DNA of 64,000 nt from a virus, in the IMG/VR virus record IMGVR_UViG_3300050821_001858, positions 1 through 64,000 of that record; one strand, 5' to 3'. Positions 3,868 through 44,770 of the stretch are shown here, one piece after another (position 1 is the stretch's first letter; each line of letters starts with the position of its first letter). The position numbers were made by a program, and so were the translations under genes. A model generated the notes under the pieces. That model was not told the DNA's origin. It saw only the letters and a list, made by a program, of their open reading frames with translations, and did no database searches.

Positions 3868-4536
3868 ATGAAGCTACTTACGGAACTTTACGAAACAGTC
3901 GAATATATTACTGAAGAAGTAAATGGCGGAAAACGTACCTTTATTAAGGGTATTTTTGCCGAAGCCGAAGTATTGAATCGCAATAAGCGCATGTATCCAA
4001 TGCCTATTCTTGAACGTGAGATTACCCGGTACACGAAGGAGAATATCTCCACAAACTCAGCATACGGAGAGTTAAATCATCCCGATGGACCGGGTATTAA
4101 CCTTGATCGAGCATGTATCCTTATCAAGGAAATGAACAAGGATGGTAATGCTTTTATTGGTAAGGCTCTGGTTACTTCCACCCCTATGGGGAAGATTGTA
4201 GAAGGTCTAATTGCTGACGGTGCTAGATTGGGAGTTAGCACCCGAGCATTAGGCTCTCTACAGCCTATTAAGGAAGGTGTAAATGAAGGGTCGTTTCTGG
4301 TACGTCCCGATCTACGATTGCTCGCCGTGGACGTAGTTGCTGACCCTTCAGCCCCTAATGCTTTTGTAAACGGTATTCTTGAAGACCGTGAGTACATTTA
4401 CGATGCTTCCAAAAATATTTTTGTCGAAGAATTCCTTGATGAAACCAAGAAAGTCCTTAAAAATATGGATCAAAAGCGTGTTGATGAAGCTAAATTGGCT
4501 ATGTTCCAAGAATTTTTGGATAAACTGGCTTCATAA
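3868..4536 (+). CDS. gp21: Prohead maturation protease gp21
   Basis: Serine protease that cleaves scaffold and capsid proteins after (L/I)xE sites. 222 residues, close to T4 gp21 (212). The S78-type active site is visible: catalytic His in GELNHPDGPG (about residue 70) and Ser in GVSTRALGS (about residue 122). The N-terminal EVLNRNKRMYP is also typical. Located before scaffold gp22 and capsid gp23 as in T4. Confidence 0.95.
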   Translation: MKLLTELYETVEYITEEVNGGKRTFIKGIFAEAEVLNRNKRMYPMPILEREITRYTKENISTNSAYGELNHPDGPGINLDRACILIKEMNKDGNAFIGKALVTSTPMGKIVEGLIADGARLGVSTRALGSLQPIKEGVNEGSFLVRPDLRLLAVDVVADPSAPNAFVNGILEDREYIYDASKNIFVEEFLDETKKVLKNMDQKRVDEAKLAMFQEFLDKLAS

Positions 4537-4584: not shown

Positions 4585-5595
4585 ATGGTAAAGAAAGACA
4601 ATAAGAAGGTGAATGAAGATTCTGTTGCTGCTGAAACAGTGCATCCAGACACTCGCCCTGCAAATCTTCCTCGCACCAAATTTGACACCATTAAGGCAGT
4701 TATTGGTAAGTTTGCCGAAATGACTGACGAAGATTTGAATAACTTCGAAAAGATTTTCACCAGTGTCCAGTTCAAAGGTGATCTTCCTTCTCGTGTATCT
4801 TCAGAACATAACAAGGCAACTATTGAAGCGCATCCTTCCCATGCGGTTGGTAAAGCAGTCAAGGAAGACATTGAAGCCCTTTTAGCTGGCGGCGAAGGTC
4901 TATCCGAAGAATTTAAGACCCAGGCTGCTGTGCTTTTTGAAACAGCCCTTAACGCTCAACTTCAGCTTAAGGAACTAGAACTTCAGGAACAATTCGACAA
5001 GGAACTTGACGAAAAGGTTCGAGAAATCCTCGAAAACACTTCCGATTCAGTTGACACTTTCTTGAATTATACCGCTCAGAACTGGCTTAAGGAAAACAAG
5101 GTCGCTGTTGAGCATGCTCTTAAGATTGCCGTCTATGAAGATTTCATTGCTGGCATGAAGAAGGTATTTGAGGAAACTCATATCAATATTCCTGAAAACA
5201 AAGTTGATGTTGTTGAAACCCTTGCTTCAGAGGTTTCGGAACTTCAGGATGCTCTTTCTGAAGCAATCAAGGAAAACGCTGATCTACGTCAGCAAGTTAA
5301 CGAAGCTGCACGTACTAAGGTAGTTGCCAAGCTTTCTGAGGGGCTAACTACTCTTGATATTGAGAAGTTCAAGAAGTTTTCTGAAAGCGTTGAAGCCGAA
5401 GATATCGAAGAGTTTTCTTCGAAGCTTAAGGTTATTCGTGAAAGCAACTTCCTTAAGGACCTAAAGAAGCCTTCGCTTCTAGCGGAACAAATGGAAGAGG
5501 TTGATGAGACAAAGCAGAACAATGAGGAACCTAAGGAAGTTTCTCCAGCTATGAAGTCTTACGTTGATACAATTCGTCGTACTAACCGTTTCTAA
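4585..5595 (+). CDS. gp22: Prohead scaffold protein gp22
   Basis: Major scaffold of the prohead core, digested by gp21. 336 residues (T4: 269), strongly acidic and helical with long coiled-coil stretches between about residues 100 and 300. The C-terminal SPAMKSYVDTIRRTNRF is the conserved capsid-binding tail of the family. It lies between protease and capsid genes and carries its own late box and TAGGAG ribosome site. Confidence 0.92.
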   Translation: MVKKDNKKVNEDSVAAETVHPDTRPANLPRTKFDTIKAVIGKFAEMTDEDLNNFEKIFTSVQFKGDLPSRVSSEHNKATIEAHPSHAVGKAVKEDIEALLAGGEGLSEEFKTQAAVLFETALNAQLQLKELELQEQFDKELDEKVREILENTSDSVDTFLNYTAQNWLKENKVAVEHALKIAVYEDFIAGMKKVFEETHINIPENKVDVVETLASEVSELQDALSEAIKENADLRQQVNEAARTKVVAKLSEGLTTLDIEKFKKFSESVEAEDIEEFSSKLKVIRESNFLKDLKKPSLLAEQMEEVDETKQNNEEPKEVSPAMKSYVDTIRRTNRF

Positions 5596-5614: not shown

Positions 5615-5622
5615 TATAAATA
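5615..5622 (+). promoter_or_regulatory. Late promoter box TATAAATA (gp23)
   Basis: An exact T4-type TATAAATA 30 nt before the capsid gene start, followed by a strong AAAGGAG ribosome site. Confidence 0.75.
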
Positions 5623-5652
5623 AAAATAACTAATAATAAAGGAGTTTTGAAA

Positions 5653-7071
5653 ATGAATCAGCAATATCCAGTTGATGAAATGCAAAAGAAGTGGAAGGAC
5701 GTTCTCGACGTAGACGTTTATCCGGCTATTGGCGATTCTCATCGACGCCGTGTTACCGCACAGCTTTTGGAAAACACCGAGCGTGAGTTAGGTCAGTATC
5801 GTGATCGTTCACAGTTTCTTTTGGAAACTTCACCAACCAACTCGATGGGTCTTTCTTCATCGACCGCTGGCGCTGGTGCAATTGACACCTTCGACCCGAT
5901 CTTGATCTCCCTTATTCGTCGTGCAATGCCTAATCTTATTGCATACGAACTTTGTGGTGTTCAGCCGATGACTGGTCCGACTGGTTTGATCTTCGCAATG
6001 CGTTCACGCTATGCTAACCAAGCTGGTAACGAAGCATTCTTCTACGAAGCTAACACTGGTTTCTCTGCTCGTGGTGGTGCTAACGCAACTTCCAACACAC
6101 AGGCTGGTTCTGCTGGTCCGTGGGCAAATGATACTGCTCCGGGTGGTGCCGCAAACAACGTAGGTTCTAACTCAACCTATACTATCCCGTCAGTTTCAAA
6201 CAACGCTGGTAACTCCACCTATAACTATGCTGGTGGTTTGTTTACCGGTCTTGCTGAAGGTTTGGGTTCTAACACAACCGCAATCTTCCCTGAAATGGCG
6301 TTCTCTATCGAGCGTGTTACGGTCACTGCACTTAGCCGTGGTCTTAAGGCTGAATACTCGATGGAACTTGCACAGGACTTGAAGGCAATTCATGGTCTTG
6401 ACGCAGAAACCGAGCTATCGAATATTCTTTCGACTGAAATTCTTGCTGAAATCAATCGTGAAGTTATTCGTACTCTTAACGTAACCGCTGTTTCCGGCGC
6501 ACAGGACAATACTACCACTGCTGGTATCTTTGACCTTGACGTTGACTCTAACGGTCGTTGGATGGTTGAAAAGTTCAAGGGTCTTCACTTCCAGATTGAA
6601 CGTGAAGCTAACCAGATTGCTAAGCAGACCCGACGTGGTAAGGGTAACCTAATGCTTTGTTCTTCTGACGTTGCATCAGCACTTCAGATGACTGGCATGC
6701 TATCCAACACCCCTGGTCTTAACGGCAACAAGCTTGAAGTTGACGACATGGGCAACACCTTCGCAGGTGTTCTTAACGGACGCATTAAGGTCTATATTGA
6801 CCCGTATGCTCTTGGTGGTCAGTACATGACAGTCGGTTATAAGGGTAACAACCCGTTTGACGCTGGCTTCTTCTATTGCCCGTATGTTCCTCTACAGATG
6901 GTTCGTGCTGTCGATCAGAGCACCTTCCAGCCTAAGATCGGATTTAAGACCCGATATGGTATGGTCGCTAACCCGTTCGCAGTCGGTATGCCAGTTGGTC
7001 ACGTCTCCGGTACTCTTACCCAAGACTCCAACCAATACTACCGCCGTGTAATCATAAATAATCTCCAATAA
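5653..7071 (+). CDS. gp23: Major capsid protein gp23
   Basis: Main shell protein, 472 residues. ATG 5653 is chosen over an in-frame TTG at 5647 because AAAGGAG lies 8 nt upstream. A gp21-type site FLLE (after residue 58) precedes the expected mature N-terminus TSPTNSMGLSSST, followed by IDTFDPILISLIRRAMPN, a hallmark of gp23. The C-terminal part (YGMVANPF, YYRRVIINNL) is also typical. Codon use is biased toward C-ending codons compared with neighbours, as expected for a highly expressed gene. A terminator follows. Confidence 0.97.
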   Translation: MNQQYPVDEMQKKWKDVLDVDVYPAIGDSHRRRVTAQLLENTERELGQYRDRSQFLLETSPTNSMGLSSSTAGAGAIDTFDPILISLIRRAMPNLIAYELCGVQPMTGPTGLIFAMRSRYANQAGNEAFFYEANTGFSARGGANATSNTQAGSAGPWANDTAPGGAANNVGSNSTYTIPSVSNNAGNSTYNYAGGLFTGLAEGLGSNTTAIFPEMAFSIERVTVTALSRGLKAEYSMELAQDLKAIHGLDAETELSNILSTEILAEINREVIRTLNVTAVSGAQDNTTTAGIFDLDVDSNGRWMVEKFKGLHFQIEREANQIAKQTRRGKGNLMLCSSDVASALQMTGMLSNTPGLNGNKLEVDDMGNTFAGVLNGRIKVYIDPYALGGQYMTVGYKGNNPFDAGFFYCPYVPLQMVRAVDQSTFQPKIGFKTRYGMVANPFAVGMPVGHVSGTLTQDSNQYYRRVIINNLQ

Positions 7072-37298: not shown

Positions 37299-37470
37299 AT
37301 CATCAACAACGTTAGAAGCGCTTTTTTGGGATATGGAACGCGCAATGGTAAAATGTATGAGTTATCATACTTTTTGGAATTATAAAGCTTTGATACCTGA
37401 GGTTAGTAATGGGAGTAATATTACTTCTTTACAATGGGACATGTTGTATAATGTTTACTTTAATGAATGA
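37291..37470 (+). CDS. Small protein, unknown
   Basis: 59 residues from ATG 37291 (MDKSSTTLEALFWDMERAM), overlapping the gp41 stop by 8 nt and the convergent methyltransferase by 16 nt. Unknown function. Confidence 0.6.
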   Translation: MDKSSTTLEALFWDMERAMVKCMSYHTFWNYKALIPEVSNGSNITSLQWDMLYNVYFNE

Positions 37471-38015
37471 AGACGGAAAGCAACTTGTTCATGTCCTGAT
37501 TTTGATATACAAGTGTATGTGTATAGTCCTAAATTAAGGAATTCTTGAAAAGCTTTATATTCCCCTTCCTCAAAACCAGTATATCCACAAAATTCATCGA
37601 ATAGAATAATAGTACCATCTCGTAATTGATCTTTAATTGTATTAAGAACATATGAAGTTGAAGAATATAGATCAGCATCCATATGTAAAAAGGCAACTGA
37701 ATCAGTTTGTTCTTTGAGGAAGGTTTCAAGAGTATCTTGAAATAGACCTATCACAAGATGAACGTTGGAGGGTAAGTCTTTCGGAGGATCACATTTAAAA
37801 TGCCCTTTGTCATAGCCGTTACGCCAATTTTCGGGTAATCCTTCGAATGAATCAAAACCATAAACAGTACGATTGGGTAAATGGTTGGCTATTCTTCGGA
37901 TTGAGCCTCCTGTTCCTACTCCAAATTCCATGATCATTCCATCCTCGGAGGATTGAGATAGAATTTCTTCAAGGGTTTTGCCTTCAGTTCCTTCAATTTT
38001 ATCTATGAGTGACAT
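37455..38015 (-). CDS. TylF-type class I methyltransferase
   Basis: 186 residues from ATG 38015 (upstream residues in the open frame are not protein-like). SAM motif MEFGVGTGGSIRRIA, then YGFDSFEGLPENW, AFLHMDADLYSST and ILFDEFCGYTGFEEGEYKAF match macrocin-O-methyltransferase-like proteins. Target unknown; may modify sugars, base or protein. Only gene leftward in this part, driven by its own late box. Confidence 0.8.
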   Translation of the reverse strand: MSLIDKIEGTEGKTLEEILSQSSEDGMIMEFGVGTGGSIRRIANHLPNRTVYGFDSFEGLPENWRNGYDKGHFKCDPPKDLPSNVHLVIGLFQDTLETFLKEQTDSVAFLHMDADLYSSTSYVLNTIKDQLRDGTIILFDEFCGYTGFEEGEYKAFQEFLNLGLYTYTCISKSGHEQVAFRLHSLK

Positions 38016-38018
38016 AGG

Positions 38019-38037
38019 ATTATTTAGTCTAAATAAT
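38019..38037. promoter_or_regulatory. Palindromic divergent late promoter pair
   Basis: ATTATTTAGTCTAAATAAT is a perfect palindrome around the central T. On the plus strand it holds TCTAAATA-N4-ATG (38040); on the minus strand ACTAAATA-N5-ATG (38015). Confidence 0.6.
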
Positions 38038-38039
38038 GA

Positions 38040-40112
38040 ATGTTCCTGATAGATGAAGAAGTCATTTTTGAAGCTGAAGAGCCTAAAGAACAAGAAAAGC
38101 CCCAAAAGCTGACTAAACAGGGTTATTTTGACCATGTAGAGGACTTGATTTTTCGTCATGGAGAAAAAGGTTATAAGGACGCTCTAAAAGTATTGGATAA
38201 AACATATGGGTTTGTTAAGGGAAGAAATAAAGGAATTAACGTCTCTACTAAATTTGACGGTAGTCCGGGAATACTTTGGGGACATGCAAACGGTAAATTC
38301 TTCGTATCCACGAAATCTTTTTTTAATCAATCCCCAAAACTCAATTTTACTACAAACGATATCCAATCCAATCATGGAAAGTCTAAGGGACTTACAACGC
38401 GCCTTCAACAAGCACTGAAATATCTCCCGGAAGTTACTCCTAAGAAGGGTATATTCCGAGGGGATTTGATGTTCACTAAGGATGATATAGAGCACGCCAA
38501 TGGAAATATCAAATTCACTCCAAACACTCTATCATACAATGTACCCGATGCCTCCGAAGAAGGTCAAAAGATTCTTAAGGCTAAGATCGGCATTGTCCCT
38601 CATATGGAATATGAGGAACAGCCTAATGGGTCATTAAAGGCTCGTTTCGATCTTTCCCCTTCTCGGTTTAAGAAGTCTGATAATGTGCATATGATCGATC
38701 CTCAATTGAAGGGTCCTCAGGAAATGCATCCTGAACGAGAAAAAGACTATATTGATAATATTAATCAGGCACAGAAATTAAAATCCGAGTTGGACAGTAA
38801 TCACTCCTTTATGGCGATTGAAGGTCATCAGGATTTATTACTCGGCTATATCAATAATTGCGTCAAGGAAGGCAAGCCCAAGTCAGTTGGGGGCTATATC
38901 TCGTTCTTGACCAAGAAAGCCGGGGAACATATTGGTAGTGTCAAGCAGGACAAAACTAAGAGTAAAGTTCAAAAGGAACTTGATGATGAAATCTTCAAGG
39001 TAAATCAGAATAAAAAGGGTCTTGATACCCTATTCAAGGTACATGGGCATCTTGCGAAGGCAAAGAAAGCCCTTACTGATACCTTAGGCAAGAATTCCCC
39101 CTATAAAGAAACAGTGTTGGATAAACCGGCAAAGCCTGAGGGTTTTGTTGCATCTGTCGATGGTCAACCGGTGAAGCTGGTAGACCGGTCGAAATTCTCT
39201 GCGCAAAATTTCGAATGGAACAATAAGGTTAATCCCGAAGATAATCCTCTTGTTTTGACATTTGGACGTATGAATCCAGCAACAAAGGGTCATGGTAAGC
39301 TTCTCGATAAAGCTGATGACGTTGCTCGTCGTATTGGAGCAAAGGCGAAGACAGTCCTAACCAATACTCAGGATAAGAAGAACAATCCTCTTACTCCCGC
39401 TGAAAAGCTTAAATGGGCAAAGACCCTATTCCCCGGAAAAGATATCGCCTTGGCGTCACCTGATAAAGGGACGATCATTGCTCAGTTGCAACATGCTCAT
39501 CATTCAGGTGTGCAGGATATGACGATTGTTACTGGTTCTGATAAGGCTAAGATGTATCAGGATTTGATCAACAAGTATAATGGTCCAAGTAAAAACCATC
39601 TATTCAACTTCAAGAGAGCCCGGATCGTGGTTGCTAACCGTAATAAGGGTGGTAAACCCGGTAGTGAGGACCCGGAGGATGCATCAGCTACAAGAGCACG
39701 TGATGCAGCTATGAAGGATGATTTCAACGAATTCAAGAAAGTGATGCCTAAGGGAGTGTCGGATGACGCTACCAAGGAAGTATATCATACGGTAAGAGCA
39801 AATGCCGGTGTTGTCAAAATTGACGACAAAACAGATGCTCATGCTTTGGTTATTCTCTCAAAGCGACACGATGATATCGGTAAACAGGCTAAGAAAGAGG
39901 TAGAACGACGTAAAACTCATGGTATCTGGACAGGTCATATTCATGAAGATGGTAATAAAGTAAATGATCCTAATAAGAGATTGTTTGCTACCAAGTCAGC
40001 GTTTGATGCATATGCATCAGATACCCCTGATCAATCAACGAAAATACCTAATTATCAAGCGAACCTTGAAACAATTAGAAAAGTAATGAAAAAGAAAGCC
40101 CTTAAATCCTAA
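38040..40112 (+). CDS. Ligase-like nucleotidyltransferase fused to NMNAT/cytidylyltransferase-like domain
   Basis: 690 residues. Residues about 50-250 contain the ligase/capping-type motif STKFDGSPGILWG (K-x-DG) with GKFFVSTKSFF and GIFRGDLMFT. Residues about 400-540 are a Rossmann nucleotidylyltransferase: TFGRMNPATKGHGK (T/HxGH), TGSDKAKMY, SATRARDAAMKDD. The C-terminal 80 residues are basic. Substrates are unknown: NAD-related or RNA-end chemistry are both conceivable. Late-type promoter and virion-gene neighbours suggest late expression or packaging. Confidence 0.75.
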   Translation: MFLIDEEVIFEAEEPKEQEKPQKLTKQGYFDHVEDLIFRHGEKGYKDALKVLDKTYGFVKGRNKGINVSTKFDGSPGILWGHANGKFFVSTKSFFNQSPKLNFTTNDIQSNHGKSKGLTTRLQQALKYLPEVTPKKGIFRGDLMFTKDDIEHANGNIKFTPNTLSYNVPDASEEGQKILKAKIGIVPHMEYEEQPNGSLKARFDLSPSRFKKSDNVHMIDPQLKGPQEMHPEREKDYIDNINQAQKLKSELDSNHSFMAIEGHQDLLLGYINNCVKEGKPKSVGGYISFLTKKAGEHIGSVKQDKTKSKVQKELDDEIFKVNQNKKGLDTLFKVHGHLAKAKKALTDTLGKNSPYKETVLDKPAKPEGFVASVDGQPVKLVDRSKFSAQNFEWNNKVNPEDNPLVLTFGRMNPATKGHGKLLDKADDVARRIGAKAKTVLTNTQDKKNNPLTPAEKLKWAKTLFPGKDIALASPDKGTIIAQLQHAHHSGVQDMTIVTGSDKAKMYQDLINKYNGPSKNHLFNFKRARIVVANRNKGGKPGSEDPEDASATRARDAAMKDDFNEFKKVMPKGVSDDATKEVYHTVRANAGVVKIDDKTDAHALVILSKRHDDIGKQAKKEVERRKTHGIWTGHIHEDGNKVNDPNKRLFATKSAFDAYASDTPDQSTKIPNYQANLETIRKVMKKKALKS

Positions 40113-40142: not shown

Positions 40143-41612
40143 ATGAAAAGTTTTAAGAATTTAATCAAAGGATTGAAAGAAGATGAAAACACGACCAGCC
40201 CGCAACCCTATCCGTTTGCCCCTGAAGCCGCTAAGCCAGAAGCCCAAACGAGTAGTCGTAAAAAGGTTCAAGCCAACACGTCCCCATGGTCAAACCAAGA
40301 CGATCCAAACACTATAAAAATCGGCGAGGTAACACCCGTTGATACTGACCCTCAATTGGACACCAAGAATCCAAAGCCGTCAAATGTACCGGTGGGTCAG
40401 AACACTACTGTTGAATCAACAGTTAATGAGGCTGAATATAATCTTTCAACACAAAAGTCTACTCTTGAAAAGGATATGGCATTTGCGAAGTATCATCGTG
40501 ATATAGCTGAAAGGGTCATGGAAATCGTAAAGCGTCGTCAAAAGCACGCTGATCTTCATGGTATTCGTCCATTCGGTAATATGGCTCCGATGCAAACAGA
40601 ATCATCTTCAGGGACTATTGTTCGACACCCTGTAGAAGTCGTCGGACATATTATTGATGCTGCAATGAAGGGTTTAGGTACTGATGCTAGATTGAATATT
40701 CATGTTCCACGTACTGGTGAATTATCTCATGCTCAATCTCGACTAGGTGCTGAAACTAATAAGAATGCTAAGAAGGCTAAGCCAGAAGAAAAGCCTGTTG
40801 CAAAGGAACCAGAAAGGGAGAAGACCGTGAATGATAAGCTGATGGCTGCTGTTGGTAAGATGGGAGAGAATGTCAACGAAGGCTTCATGAAGCGTCGTTA
40901 TAATATCTCGGATATTCATTCGGAAGTAGACAAATTCCATCCTTCTGTCCCCCATGAGAATGTTTTGCAACATATCGATAATAAGACCGCTCATTGGGCT
41001 GATCCTGTACAAAAGTCACAGGCTGCGTCTGATGCAAGCATGTACCATGAGCGTCGTCAGAAAGATTTCCGTAAGTCTCAGTCGTCCCAGAAGCTTACTT
41101 TAGCTTCTCAGGCAACAGATGGTGGTTCGGGTATATCTGAGAACCTGGGAGCTACTAATGATAGTTCGGGTGGTGCTGATGGTGTTGGTACCATTGATAA
41201 GGCAAATGTCAAGAAGAACAAAATTCGTCAAGGTATCGGTAAAGATAGCAAGAGTTCCTTCAATAACAAGAATTGGAATTCCCCCGGTGTTGTTGAAAAC
41301 TTCGGACCTGTTAAGTGGTCAGATTTGAAGGCTTTGAATGAGATAATGGGCTTAATTGACAATCGTAAGCCCGAAGATTTCCCAAAGACTAAAGAAGATT
41401 ACCTTAAGCATGCTATTAAGGCAGACAAGAGTGCCCAAGATGCTGATAAACGAGGTAAGGGATGGCATGCGATGATGTTCCGTCGAATTAGGGATCGTCA
41501 TCTAGTTCATTATATCAATCGAGCAGAACCCGATGAACTTCACAAGCTTCATAAAGCTATGACAACTGAAGAATTTGAAGCTATGATGAAGGATAAATAT
41601 CCAACAAAATAA
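40143..41612 (+). CDS. Putative internal virion / core protein
   Basis: 489 residues from ATG 40143. Low-complexity, Lys/Asn/Pro-rich with several (L/I/V)xE-like sites and the recurring NEAE/NEGF type motifs of T4-like core proteins. C-terminal 100 residues look folded (WSDLKALNEIMGLIDNRKP; MTTEEFEAMMKDKY). No catalytic motif. Likely structural, from context. Confidence 0.6.
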   Translation: MKSFKNLIKGLKEDENTTSPQPYPFAPEAAKPEAQTSSRKKVQANTSPWSNQDDPNTIKIGEVTPVDTDPQLDTKNPKPSNVPVGQNTTVESTVNEAEYNLSTQKSTLEKDMAFAKYHRDIAERVMEIVKRRQKHADLHGIRPFGNMAPMQTESSSGTIVRHPVEVVGHIIDAAMKGLGTDARLNIHVPRTGELSHAQSRLGAETNKNAKKAKPEEKPVAKEPEREKTVNDKLMAAVGKMGENVNEGFMKRRYNISDIHSEVDKFHPSVPHENVLQHIDNKTAHWADPVQKSQAASDASMYHERRQKDFRKSQSSQKLTLASQATDGGSGISENLGATNDSSGGADGVGTIDKANVKKNKIRQGIGKDSKSSFNNKNWNSPGVVENFGPVKWSDLKALNEIMGLIDNRKPEDFPKTKEDYLKHAIKADKSAQDADKRGKGWHAMMFRRIRDRHLVHYINRAEPDELHKLHKAMTTEEFEAMMKDKYPTK

Positions 41613-41629
41613 TAATAAGGAGAAATATA

Positions 41630-42532
41630 ATGACACTTTGGGGAGCAAATGGAGCAGCATCTAGTAATTCAGTCAAATGGGCGGCTGAATCGATTGATGT
41701 TGCATCTGGACACGCTAATATAGTTAGCAACAACACGGCTTTGTATCAGAATACTACCCCTGGTGGATTTCCGTCTGGTCGTAATGCTGGTGCACCGACT
41801 ATTGGACAGTTTGGGGCATCAAAGACCCAGATTAATGCCAAGACAACCAATACCTCTTCGGAAGGTGGTAAAATCACTATTCCAGGCTGGCATTTACGTC
41901 GAGCCGGTGAAGGTGGTATTCAAACTGCACCGACCGGAGCAAATGGTGTATTCACAAATGGTGAATTTATTATCGTTTCGGGTGGTACTGCAAACGGTCG
42001 TTTGTCAGTAACTACAAACTCTCAGGGTAATCTAGTTTCGACTAGCCTTGTAACTCCGGGTTTGTTCGCAAACACTTCGTCCATGGTATTCACTTTTGAG
42101 CGTGATCAACACTTGGGTTCTCCGGGTGTTGCTGTTACTGCACCGGGTGGTGCTTATACCAACGGTGATGTTCTTACTGTAGCAAACGGTTTTGTTAACG
42201 CAGTATATGTTCTTACAACTAATGCTGCTGGTAACATTGCATCTTTAGCTGTTAATGCTGCTGCATCGGGTCCGGGTGGGGCTGGTCTATGGGGTAATGC
42301 GGGTTCCTTTGGTGGAACTGGTAACCTTGTATTCAGTATTGCCAACTCGACTGGTGGAGCATCGCTTGGTACGGGTGCAACATTTACTGGTAATCTTCAG
42401 ACTTCGACTGGTGGAGCGATTAATGCATCGTCTACCGTTCTAGGTGGTCGTGCTGGTCGTGTTCATTATGAAGCTTTGGCAGTTGTGAAGGGTCTAGCAA
42501 ACGGAACTTCTGCACAATTACCTAACACATAA
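41630..42532 (+). CDS. Virion structural protein
   Basis: 300 residues. MTLWGANGAASSNSVKWAAE, ALYQNTTPGGF and C-terminal GGRAGRVHYEALAVVKGL follow the pattern of virion proteins known from T4-like cyanophages. The middle holds two Gly/Ala/Asn-rich repeats (TNGEFIIVSGGTANGRLSV; TNGDVLTVANGFVNAVYVL), a tandem beta duplication. GGAGAAA ribosome site. Confidence 0.75.
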   Translation: MTLWGANGAASSNSVKWAAESIDVASGHANIVSNNTALYQNTTPGGFPSGRNAGAPTIGQFGASKTQINAKTTNTSSEGGKITIPGWHLRRAGEGGIQTAPTGANGVFTNGEFIIVSGGTANGRLSVTTNSQGNLVSTSLVTPGLFANTSSMVFTFERDQHLGSPGVAVTAPGGAYTNGDVLTVANGFVNAVYVLTTNAAGNIASLAVNAAASGPGGAGLWGNAGSFGGTGNLVFSIANSTGGASLGTGATFTGNLQTSTGGAINASSTVLGGRAGRVHYEALAVVKGLANGTSAQLPNT

Positions 42533-42562
42533 TTGTAAATATACAACGGAAAGTGATTGTAA

Positions 42563-42850
42563 ATGGTAGCAGAAGCCAAAGCAGTTCCAGATTTGCCTGC
42601 TAAGAGTACAGCGGCAAATACTGATAGAATAGTGTTTCTTTCTAATGCCGCTTCTAATGGGGGTAATGTATCGACCATTACCCTTTCCTTTTTGACTGGT
42701 AATTCATCATTATTCAATGTGGGTGTAACCGATCCAGCTAATTCAGCTTCTTGGTCCGGTCCTCCGGGGGTTTTGTTTTTCAGTAACACTTACGGCTATG
42801 TGTCCATTGCAAACAATTATCTTTTGAGGTTCCCCATCTCGACGTTTTAA
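42563..42850 (+). CDS. Small putative structural protein
   Basis: 95 residues, Asn/Ser/Gly-rich, beta-type (RIVFLSNAASNGGNVSTITL). A weak late box (TGTAAATA, 42534) and the tail/virion context suggest a minor structural role. Confidence 0.6.
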   Translation: MVAEAKAVPDLPAKSTAANTDRIVFLSNAASNGGNVSTITLSFLTGNSSLFNVGVTDPANSASWSGPPGVLFFSNTYGYVSIANNYLLRFPISTF

Positions 42851-42859
42851 GGGGATTAG

Positions 42860-43246
42860 ATGGAAGTTCTTACTGAAAAAAATTTGATCCTTTATGCTGC
42901 CAAGAACTACCGAAATCCCTCGTGTCGCGATACTGAAGAATTCTACGAGGATATACGGCGAATCAAGTACATTAAGAAGCTGATTACACGTTATGTGGAG
43001 TCGGGTATTCTGAAAGAACGTCTAATACTCAATCATCTTATAGTTCTTTCAAACGTCTTCCCCCCCGAGGTATTATGTCGTATTTTATACCTCAAAATGA
43101 AACCTCAAATCAAATATTTGAAACCTTTCTTGTTATTTCTTAATGTTTTAACTGATAGGATTAAAAACATTGAAGAAGTAAATAGTACTGACACATCACT
43201 ATTTCCTATGGATGAAACGATACTAGAAAAGTTGAGGCAAATATGA
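42860..43246 (+). CDS. Conserved T4-like protein, unknown
   Basis: 128 residues, helical, with RLILNHLIVLSNVFPPEVLCRILYLKM and LKPFLLFLNVLTDRI, a pattern I recognise from small conserved T4-like proteins near packaging/structural genes. No enzyme motif. Overlaps the next ATG by 4 nt. Confidence 0.7.
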   Translation: MEVLTEKNLILYAAKNYRNPSCRDTEEFYEDIRRIKYIKKLITRYVESGILKERLILNHLIVLSNVFPPEVLCRILYLKMKPQIKYLKPFLLFLNVLTDRIKNIEEVNSTDTSLFPMDETILEKLRQI

Positions 43247-43422
43247 GCAAAAAGGAACTTAAAGAAGACGCCCCAACGAATGCCCTTGGCGCATCATCTT
43301 CGACGCCTGGAACTGGCGCAATCGATACCTACGATCCGATTTTATTTCAACATAAGAAAATAGTGCGTAGAATTGTTGGCGTTTGGAAGGGTAAAAAAGA
43401 TGATCGAGGAATTCGAAGATAA
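43243..43422 (+). CDS. 59-residue protein mimicking the gp23 mature N-terminus
   Basis: ATGA overlap with the preceding gene. Residues 11-34 (PTNALGASSST, then GTGAIDTYDPIL) match gp23 residues 61-84 at 18 of 24 positions, and both are preceded by a gp21-like LxE site (ELKE here, FLLE in gp23). The DNA of the two segments differs at many third positions, so it is not a recent copy. The basic C-terminus (KKIVRRIVGVWKGKKDD) is unrelated. Function unknown; capsid binding or processing by gp21 is plausible. Confidence 0.7.
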   Translation: MSKKELKEDAPTNALGASSSTPGTGAIDTYDPILFQHKKIVRRIVGVWKGKKDDRGIRR

Positions 43423-43762: not shown

Positions 43763-44221
43763 ATGAGAAGGTTCTTTGCGAATTTAATTCTAATACCGTT
43801 GTATATTTTTCTCGCTGTTCTCTTTTATTGGATGGCTGAATCACGATTTACATTTCCGACGCGCGTAGAATCACATAGTATTTTAACACCTGAAGTAGCG
43901 GCTGGTCAGAACCTTCATTTTGAAACAAAATTTTTTCGTTTGGCATCTTGTCGAGTTAGTCGTTCTCAGTTTTTATTGAATGGAGACAGACAAATTCGAT
44001 TGCATAACGAGGAATATTATATTGAAGCAGACGTTTCAATATTAGATGTTCAAAATCTTGTACATATACCTAAAGATGTTGAACCCGGGTTGTATGAATT
44101 TTATGTGCAAACAACATATTTCTGTAATCCAACTGATTATATTATGACGAGAACTCGTACCATTGATTATGGACGGGTTACTGTATTACCTTATAACGCA
44201 GACCACAAAAGACCTGAGTAG
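43763..44221 (+). CDS. Membrane-anchored protein, paralogue 1
   Basis: 152 residues. N-terminal membrane helix (LILIPLYIFLAVLFYWMAE), then a periplasmic-type domain with FTFPTRV, AAGQNLHFETKFFR, VHIPKDVEPGLYEFYVQTTYFCNP and GRVTVLP. Clearly paralogous to the next gene. Two conserved Cys could form a disulfide. Function unknown. Confidence 0.7.
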   Translation: MRRFFANLILIPLYIFLAVLFYWMAESRFTFPTRVESHSILTPEVAAGQNLHFETKFFRLASCRVSRSQFLLNGDRQIRLHNEEYYIEADVSILDVQNLVHIPKDVEPGLYEFYVQTTYFCNPTDYIMTRTRTIDYGRVTVLPYNADHKRPE

Positions 44222-44230
44222 TTCTAAATA

Positions 44231-44770
44231 ATGGAACCAGATATGAATAAGAACCTGATACAGAGATTATATCCATGGTTGCTTTTAGCCCCTCTATATT
44301 TGTTTTTGGGGTTGATGTTTTATTGGTTAGTTGAATCCAAAACTACTTTTCCTTCTTCGGTTATATCCAAAAGGGTGTTAAACCCAGAACTTCATTCAGG
44401 ACAGAACCTTTTTACGGAAGGTGTGTTCAAGAGAGATACACAATGTCGAATTAATCGTATTCATACCTTAGTCAATGATTTTCGACAAATTCGAGTTGGA
44501 AATGATGATTATTATATCTATCCTGATAATCTTCCAATTGCTATACAAAATGTTATTAACATTCCTATTGACGTACAACCGGGAGAGTATCAATATATAA
44601 TTCAGACGACTTATTTCTGTAATCCAATGGATTATTTGATAGGTAGACATCGTGATGTGCCTTATGGTAAAGTTACGATCCTTCCTCCGGTGACAACAAC
44701 ACCACAACCTGTGGTACCCGCTCCGGTGAATCCACCCGTAAAGGGAACGAACACTCAACAGCGAAAATGA
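44231..44770 (+). CDS. Membrane-anchored protein, paralogue 2
   Basis: 179 residues (175 if ATG 44243 is used). Same layout as the preceding gene: LLLAPLYLFLGLMFYWLVES, TTFPSSV, SGQNLFTEGVFKR, NIPIDVQPGEYQYIIQTTY, FCNPMDYL, GKVTILP, plus a Pro/Thr-rich tail. A TCTAAATA box ends directly at ATG 44231, so the later start or read-through RNA is likely. Tandem duplication. Confidence 0.7.
   Translation: MEPDMNKNLIQRLYPWLLLAPLYLFLGLMFYWLVESKTTFPSSVISKRVLNPELHSGQNLFTEGVFKRDTQCRINRIHTLVNDFRQIRVGNDDYYIYPDNLPIAIQNVINIPIDVQPGEYQYIIQTTYFCNPMDYLIGRHRDVPYGKVTILPPVTTTPQPVVPAPVNPPVKGTNTQQRK

Follow-up and report, generated by a model that had tools for sequence, protein, structure and literature searches.

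In phage T4, residues 66-91 of the major capsid protein gp23 are the first to follow the cut made by the prohead protease gp21 and form the N-fist. This element makes contact with four subunits from two capsomers and joins neighbouring capsomers after expansion; it is disordered inside the prohead and shifts to the outer surface when the shell expands (PMC9958956, PMC7136217). The N-terminal leader of T4 internal head proteins uses residues 4 and 7 for targeting and residues 8 and 10 for processing (PMC9026906). No copy of the gp23 N-fist was found in the T4 internal proteins or elsewhere in a scanned 49-kb stretch of T4 (best non-self score 39), and searches of the open-licence literature returned no description of a copied gp23 N-terminus, the term 'N-fist' itself occurring in just two papers. 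Here we describe P0001, a 59-amino-acid protein encoded at 43243..43422 (+) of a 64,000-nucleotide stretch of viral DNA (the window; positions 1 to 64,000 of IMG/VR record IMGVR_UViG_3300050821_001858, a 113-kb record carrying T4-like genes), in which a copy of the mature N-terminus of the phage's own gp23 stands between a short leader and a basic tail. We propose, with middling confidence, that P0001 belongs inside the head as a small protein which docks on gp23 through its N-fist copy and in this way anchors the basic tail or, in relatives, a fused cargo to the shell.

The P0001 translation (MSKKELKEDAPTNALGASSSTPGTGAIDTYDPILFQHKKIVRRIVGVWKGKKDDRGIRR) can be divided into three parts. The leader, MSKKELKE (43243..43266), ends in an LxE tripeptide and thus in a candidate gp21 site, with cleavage predicted between LKE and D. 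The copy of the N-fist, DAPTNALGASSSTPGTGAIDTYDPIL (43267..43344), was delimited by alignment and a search of the 113-kb record, and its position corresponds to that of T4 N-fist residues 66-91 (PMC7136217). A basic C-terminal tail follows, FQHKKIVRRIVGVWKGKKDDRGIRR (43345..43419); the final 30 residues have a net charge of +7 and the whole protein one of +6, which makes P0001 basic in the sense applied to T4 internal head proteins. No Pfam or PHROG family matched P0001, including the Gp23 domain and the phrog_696 profile, and PDB matches to hemocyanin were discarded because such a relation is implausible.

The gp23 gene of the same record, identified by Pfam Gp23 (E=2.3e-146) and phrog_138, occupies 5653..7071 (+) when counted from its ATG, the likely start judging by its context, which includes a late-promoter-like site (TATAAATA at 5615) ahead of it; the ORF (open reading frame) list begins the gene at a TTG at 5647. 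The segment copied by P0001, TSPTNSMGLSSSTAGAGAIDTFDPIL (5827..5904, +), lies immediately 3' of LLE. In the alignment of SPTNSMGLSSSTAGAGAIDTFDPIL over APTNALGASSSTPGTGAIDTYDPIL, 18 of 25 residues are identical from S/A through IL, and weaker likeness continues to 'IRR/VRR'. The local BLOSUM62 score of P0001 against gp23 is 106, compared with a maximum of 50 among 2,000 shuffles, and a search of the 113-kb record with P0001 returned, apart from P0001, only the gp23 segment (E=1.8e-9). The sole match in 50,697 phage records was again a gp23, that of Ochrobactrum phage vB_OspM_OC, and the first two matches in viral contigs were set aside as gp23 genes themselves. The resemblance is therefore confirmed, as the first-pass annotation had claimed. 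Its count of 18 identities was correct, whereas the extent, given there as 24 positions at capsid residues 61-84, becomes 25 positions at residues of about 59-84 from the ATG. Both segments do directly follow an LxE tripeptide, as it had noted, but the next residue differs in kind (T after LLE in gp23, D after LKE in P0001). The wide codon difference also held: 13 of the 18 identical residues are encoded differently, and of the 12 four-fold sites that can be compared 7 are changed. The P0001 segment is therefore not a recent DNA copy of gp23, and a recent gene duplication is ruled out.

The ORF directly 3' of the DUF7207 gene proved to occupy a position, here called the slot, that is conserved among T4-like phages infecting cyanobacteria and other bacteria. 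In the window, the DUF7207 / phrog_407 protein (T4-GC 198), assigned by family searches, is encoded at 42860..43246 (+), and P0001 begins on the final bases of its gene. Relatives were surveyed with DUF7207 as the marker, using three queries and 80 loci per query from viral contigs and reading the next downstream ORF. Slot ORFs are either short or carry extra domains (an HExxH peptidase-like domain recognized by eye, the 'VYQFxKRLxTPF' domain of phrog_18642/2086, and others), and usually contain either a gp23-like module or a generic N..G..IAG../GEPG/PPV module, with lysines after each. A score of at least 55 against the gp23 N-termini of the set was reached by 88 of 190 different slot proteins, by none of the shuffled sequences and by 3 of 185 downstream control ORFs; these controls, the shuffles of P0001 and the search of its own record rule out chance similarity. 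The loss of similarity in close relatives that the first-pass annotation had named as contrary evidence is in general not seen, since the copy persists or has arisen anew in many relatives, with about half carrying the generic tail instead. A tblastn search with a query built from cyanophage slot proteins retrieved few isolates, the slot being too variable and too short for it.

The generic tail is itself kept across many loci (such as L065, L075 and L052) in the form GIGVGPKGEPGV-KKKKLR, and compared with genome G014 it resembled nothing else seen there. The slot protein of S-SKS1 (L091 3866-4324) combines the two modules: a gp23-like stretch lies close to its N-terminus, and the protein ends in a generic IAG..PPV-KKK tail. 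In Caulobacter phage Cr30 the slot (L090 3889-4209) encodes a weakly ART/PARP-like protein with the leader MKTFKQFFNESLTE, and the tail of the next protein (L090 4206-4502) bears the phage's own PTT in place of PTN.

Slot and gp23 sequences could be paired in 39 genomes, of which 18 were left once similar gp23 N-fists had been removed. Slot copies match the gp23 of their own genome (mean score 53.7) better than that of others (34.5), with z=9.6 and 0 of 200,000 permutations as extreme in the 39 genomes, shared ancestry being uncorrected; the reduced set gave z=6.7 and again 0 of 200,000. The two segments thus change in parallel across relatives, which bears out the coevolution that the earlier annotation had suggested looking for. 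At least five lineage-specific motifs are common to the slot protein and gp23 of the same phage, such as TNVGPINTQTT in P-HM2 and GGGAxYRGxG..DSGSPT in Sf-CH8. Examples of such pairs are TNVGPINTQTTGKGAIMGFDPIL (slot) and TNVGPINTQTTSAGAVDGFDPIL (gp23) in P-HM2, TTGFTGGDAATGPTAGYDPVM and TTGYTGGDTATGPVAGFDPVL in S-H35, GGGAMYRGTGKDDSGSPTGGYDKPL and GGGAYYRGSGQTDSGSPTAGFDPVL in Sf-CH8, GPTMSVGTGGF and GPTMSAGTGGF in DSL-LC02, and GFTGAAAPEGPVAGYDPLM and GFTGAAAPGGPNAGFDPVM in S-CREM2. When ten whole genomes were scanned with the gp23 N-fist, the second-best match was the slot ORF in the three with a clear copy, scoring well above the next match (Sf-CH8, 104 vs 54; DSL-LC02, 89 vs 53; G021, 88 vs 47). 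A repeated tag on many proteins of one genome was rejected, the module being confined to gp23 and the slot protein in most genomes scanned.

The high variability of slot genes and their switching between module types would also fit a functionless by-product of recombination, in which pieces of gene 23 are repeatedly copied into a small variable gene. This explanation is already disfavoured and we regard it as highly improbable: identical residues of slot and gp23 pairs differ in codon at 7-15 positions per pair, with four-fold sites mostly changed; pN/pS within one cyanophage group is 0.27 for the copy, compared with 0.50 for the leader and 0.34 for the tail; and the slot has a fixed position, occurs once per genome and has an orthologue in the virion. 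The codon divergence in shared residues and the pN/pS values support the earlier view that selection keeps the peptide.

The virion orthologue is ORF160 of S-CREM2 (128342-129235), which is the slot gene of that phage and whose product was found in the virion proteome with 7 unique peptides and 13.1% coverage (PMC10665884). Absence of expression, the other contrary finding named beforehand, is thus in general not what is observed. The record of S-SCSM1 gives its slot gene the label 'virion protein', and the virion proteins of that phage were determined by mass spectrometry (PMC9602691). Like the T4 proteins IPI, IPII, IPIII and Alt, slot proteins are small and basic and have an N-terminal leader whose last residue is E; 38 of 39, some of them trimmed, have a net positive charge. 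Leaders of the MK[ST]FxxF type, resembling the T4 capsid targeting sequence (CTS), occur in 11 of 182 slot proteins, where shuffling predicts 0.1, and some read MKSFxxFxEE, almost the T4 CTS (MKTYQEFIAE in IPII and IPIII, MKTFKEF in IPI); the match takes in residues 4, 7 and 10, which are important in T4 (PMC9026906). The ADP-ribosyltransferase-like protein at the Cr30 locus, which has such a leader, adds a likeness to the T4 internal proteins and Alt; P0001, in contrast to these proteins, has no clear CTS.

Of 63 slot proteins, 39 have E or D after the first candidate E, against 0 of 44 gp23 proteins. This is what might be expected of a poor-substrate mimic and, with the position of both segments 3' of an LxE-type site, could indicate that the copy is a gp21 recognition tag, the slot protein being a good substrate or else a decoy or inhibitor that times maturation. 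However, in EE leaders the candidate cut could also follow the second E, and gp21 has few known determinants and cuts on the C-terminal side of Glu in a range of contexts (PMC5694885, PMC9026906). The copy, moreover, runs for about 25 residues to D-P-x-L and has lineage-specific insertions far from the cleavage site, which makes a pure substrate or decoy less likely. We consider this role unlikely. Among the three mechanisms put forward in the first-pass annotation, all of them readings of sequence, docking on the capsid fits best.

According to the docking model, a short leader, CTS-like in some relatives, would bring P0001 into the prohead, where gp21 may cut it off at the LxE site. The remainder would begin with the copy of the mature gp23 N-terminus and could dock on the gp23 lattice where the gp23 N-fist would lie, thereby tethering to the shell the basic tail or, in relatives, an enzyme or another fused domain. 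The purpose would probably be to keep DNA or cargo on the inner face of the shell, or else to occupy N-fist sites at the vertices. Docking, its site, the anchoring role and gp21 cleavage are predicted here from the sequences and from the T4 structure. In the gp23 proteins of these phages the copied stretch extends from the corresponding LxE site to the start of the N-arm (DPxL), and slot copies share with it the mature N-terminal sequence, the preceding LxE and the D-P-x-L at the end. They differ from gp23 in that slot proteins have no capsid fold, a basic tail or cargo domain follows the copy, and Y often replaces F before D-P/D-K.

Several observations weigh against this model. The permutations are uncorrected for shared ancestry, yet parallel change within lineages is the very point at issue. 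About half of the slot proteins have the generic tail (N..G..IAG..PPV/GEPG, then KKK) and no gp23 copy, which is therefore not obligatory, and near-identical gp23 N-fists are paired with a copy in DSL-LC02 and with a generic tail in G040. The generic-tail slot protein of S-SZBM1 is absent from the virion list of its phage. The P0001 start MSKKELKE lacks the features of a CTS (aromatic residues at 4 and 7, E at 10). Finally, the position of the T4 N-fist on the outer surface after expansion sits awkwardly with an internal anchor.

A special case of docking on gp23 is that the copy occupies N-fist positions which gp23 itself is unable to fill, sealing pentamer or portal-vertex sites and so controlling shell closure. 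Exactly one Gp23-family gene is present in 21 of 21 genomes tested, with no separate gp24 found, and those N-fists of T4 that adjoin the portal are disordered (PMC7136217). Nevertheless, half of the relatives have generic tails without a fist, and fused cargo domains speak against a pure sealing role; we rate it as rather unlikely. Alternatively, both segments might be ligands of a shared assembly partner, such as a chaperone or the DUF7207 protein, and not of gp23. In favour of this, the slot ORF begins within or right next to the DUF7207 gene at nearly every locus; however, DUF7207 is kept beside generic tails as well, and its predicted fold suggests no role. The AlphaFold model is confident (mean pLDDT 95) and had no fold match in the PDB at E<=0.001, so that the fold was dropped as a functional clue. 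We think a shared partner quite improbable.

Other features of the window concern the head genes and the surroundings of P0001. From gene order alone, which is 21-22-23 as in annotated T4-like phages, the ORFs at 3868..4536 (+) and 4585..5595 (+) probably encode the prohead protease gp21 and the scaffold gp22. A motif scan placed a late-promoter-like ATAAATA at 41593..41599 (+), ahead of the gene run at 41630-43422, as a weak candidate since ATAAATA shows no enrichment across the window. A 489-amino-acid protein at 40143-41612 (+) starts with MKSFKNLIKGLKE followed by DENTT; its leader is CTS-like and has LKE-D in common with P0001, and the protein is possibly another that is targeted to the head. 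At 38040-40112 (+) a DUF6267 domain and a cytidylyltransferase-like domain are joined in one ORF; cytidylyltransferase/NMNAT-like proteins have been reported from cyanophage virions (PMC9602691, PMC10665884). A long ORF on the opposite strand (37455-38159, -), methyltransferase-like by eye, overlaps the start of that gene. Downstream of P0001, two adjoining similar proteins (43763-44221 and 44231-44770, +) each have an N-terminal hydrophobic stretch and no family match; the corresponding region of phage DLP6 holds spanin-like genes, as judged by eye.

Members of the slot family from S-WAM1, S-SZBM1 and S-H35 are named 'major head protein'. This is the name of phrog_696, which includes the slot proteins of S-WAM1 (E=7e-39) and DSL-LC02 (E=4.6e-12), and whose profile P0001 does not match; the name is misleading because these slot proteins are not capsid proteins. 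Encapsulin cargo-loading peptides offer a parallel to the proposed role, being short peptides that tie cargo to an HK97-fold shell; unlike the slot copy, they are not copies of the shell protein's own N-terminus. As a more tentative generalization, which may well not hold, the slot protein would represent an interchangeable anchor, not described before, in which a head protein carries a copy of the shell's N-fist, kept in step with gp23 lineage by lineage, and fastens tails or enzymes in T4-like phages. Half of the family has no copy, and other anchors must therefore exist. The two matching segments in one genome make docking directly testable by mutation. If correct, the proposal would account for a gene slot that is found in hundreds of T4-like phages, a large number of which are marine, and that carries the annotation 'hypothetical' or the misleading 'major head protein'; the gp23 N-fist would gain a second user, and the copy would be a naturally occurring tag, matched to its phage, with which proteins could be loaded into T4-like heads.
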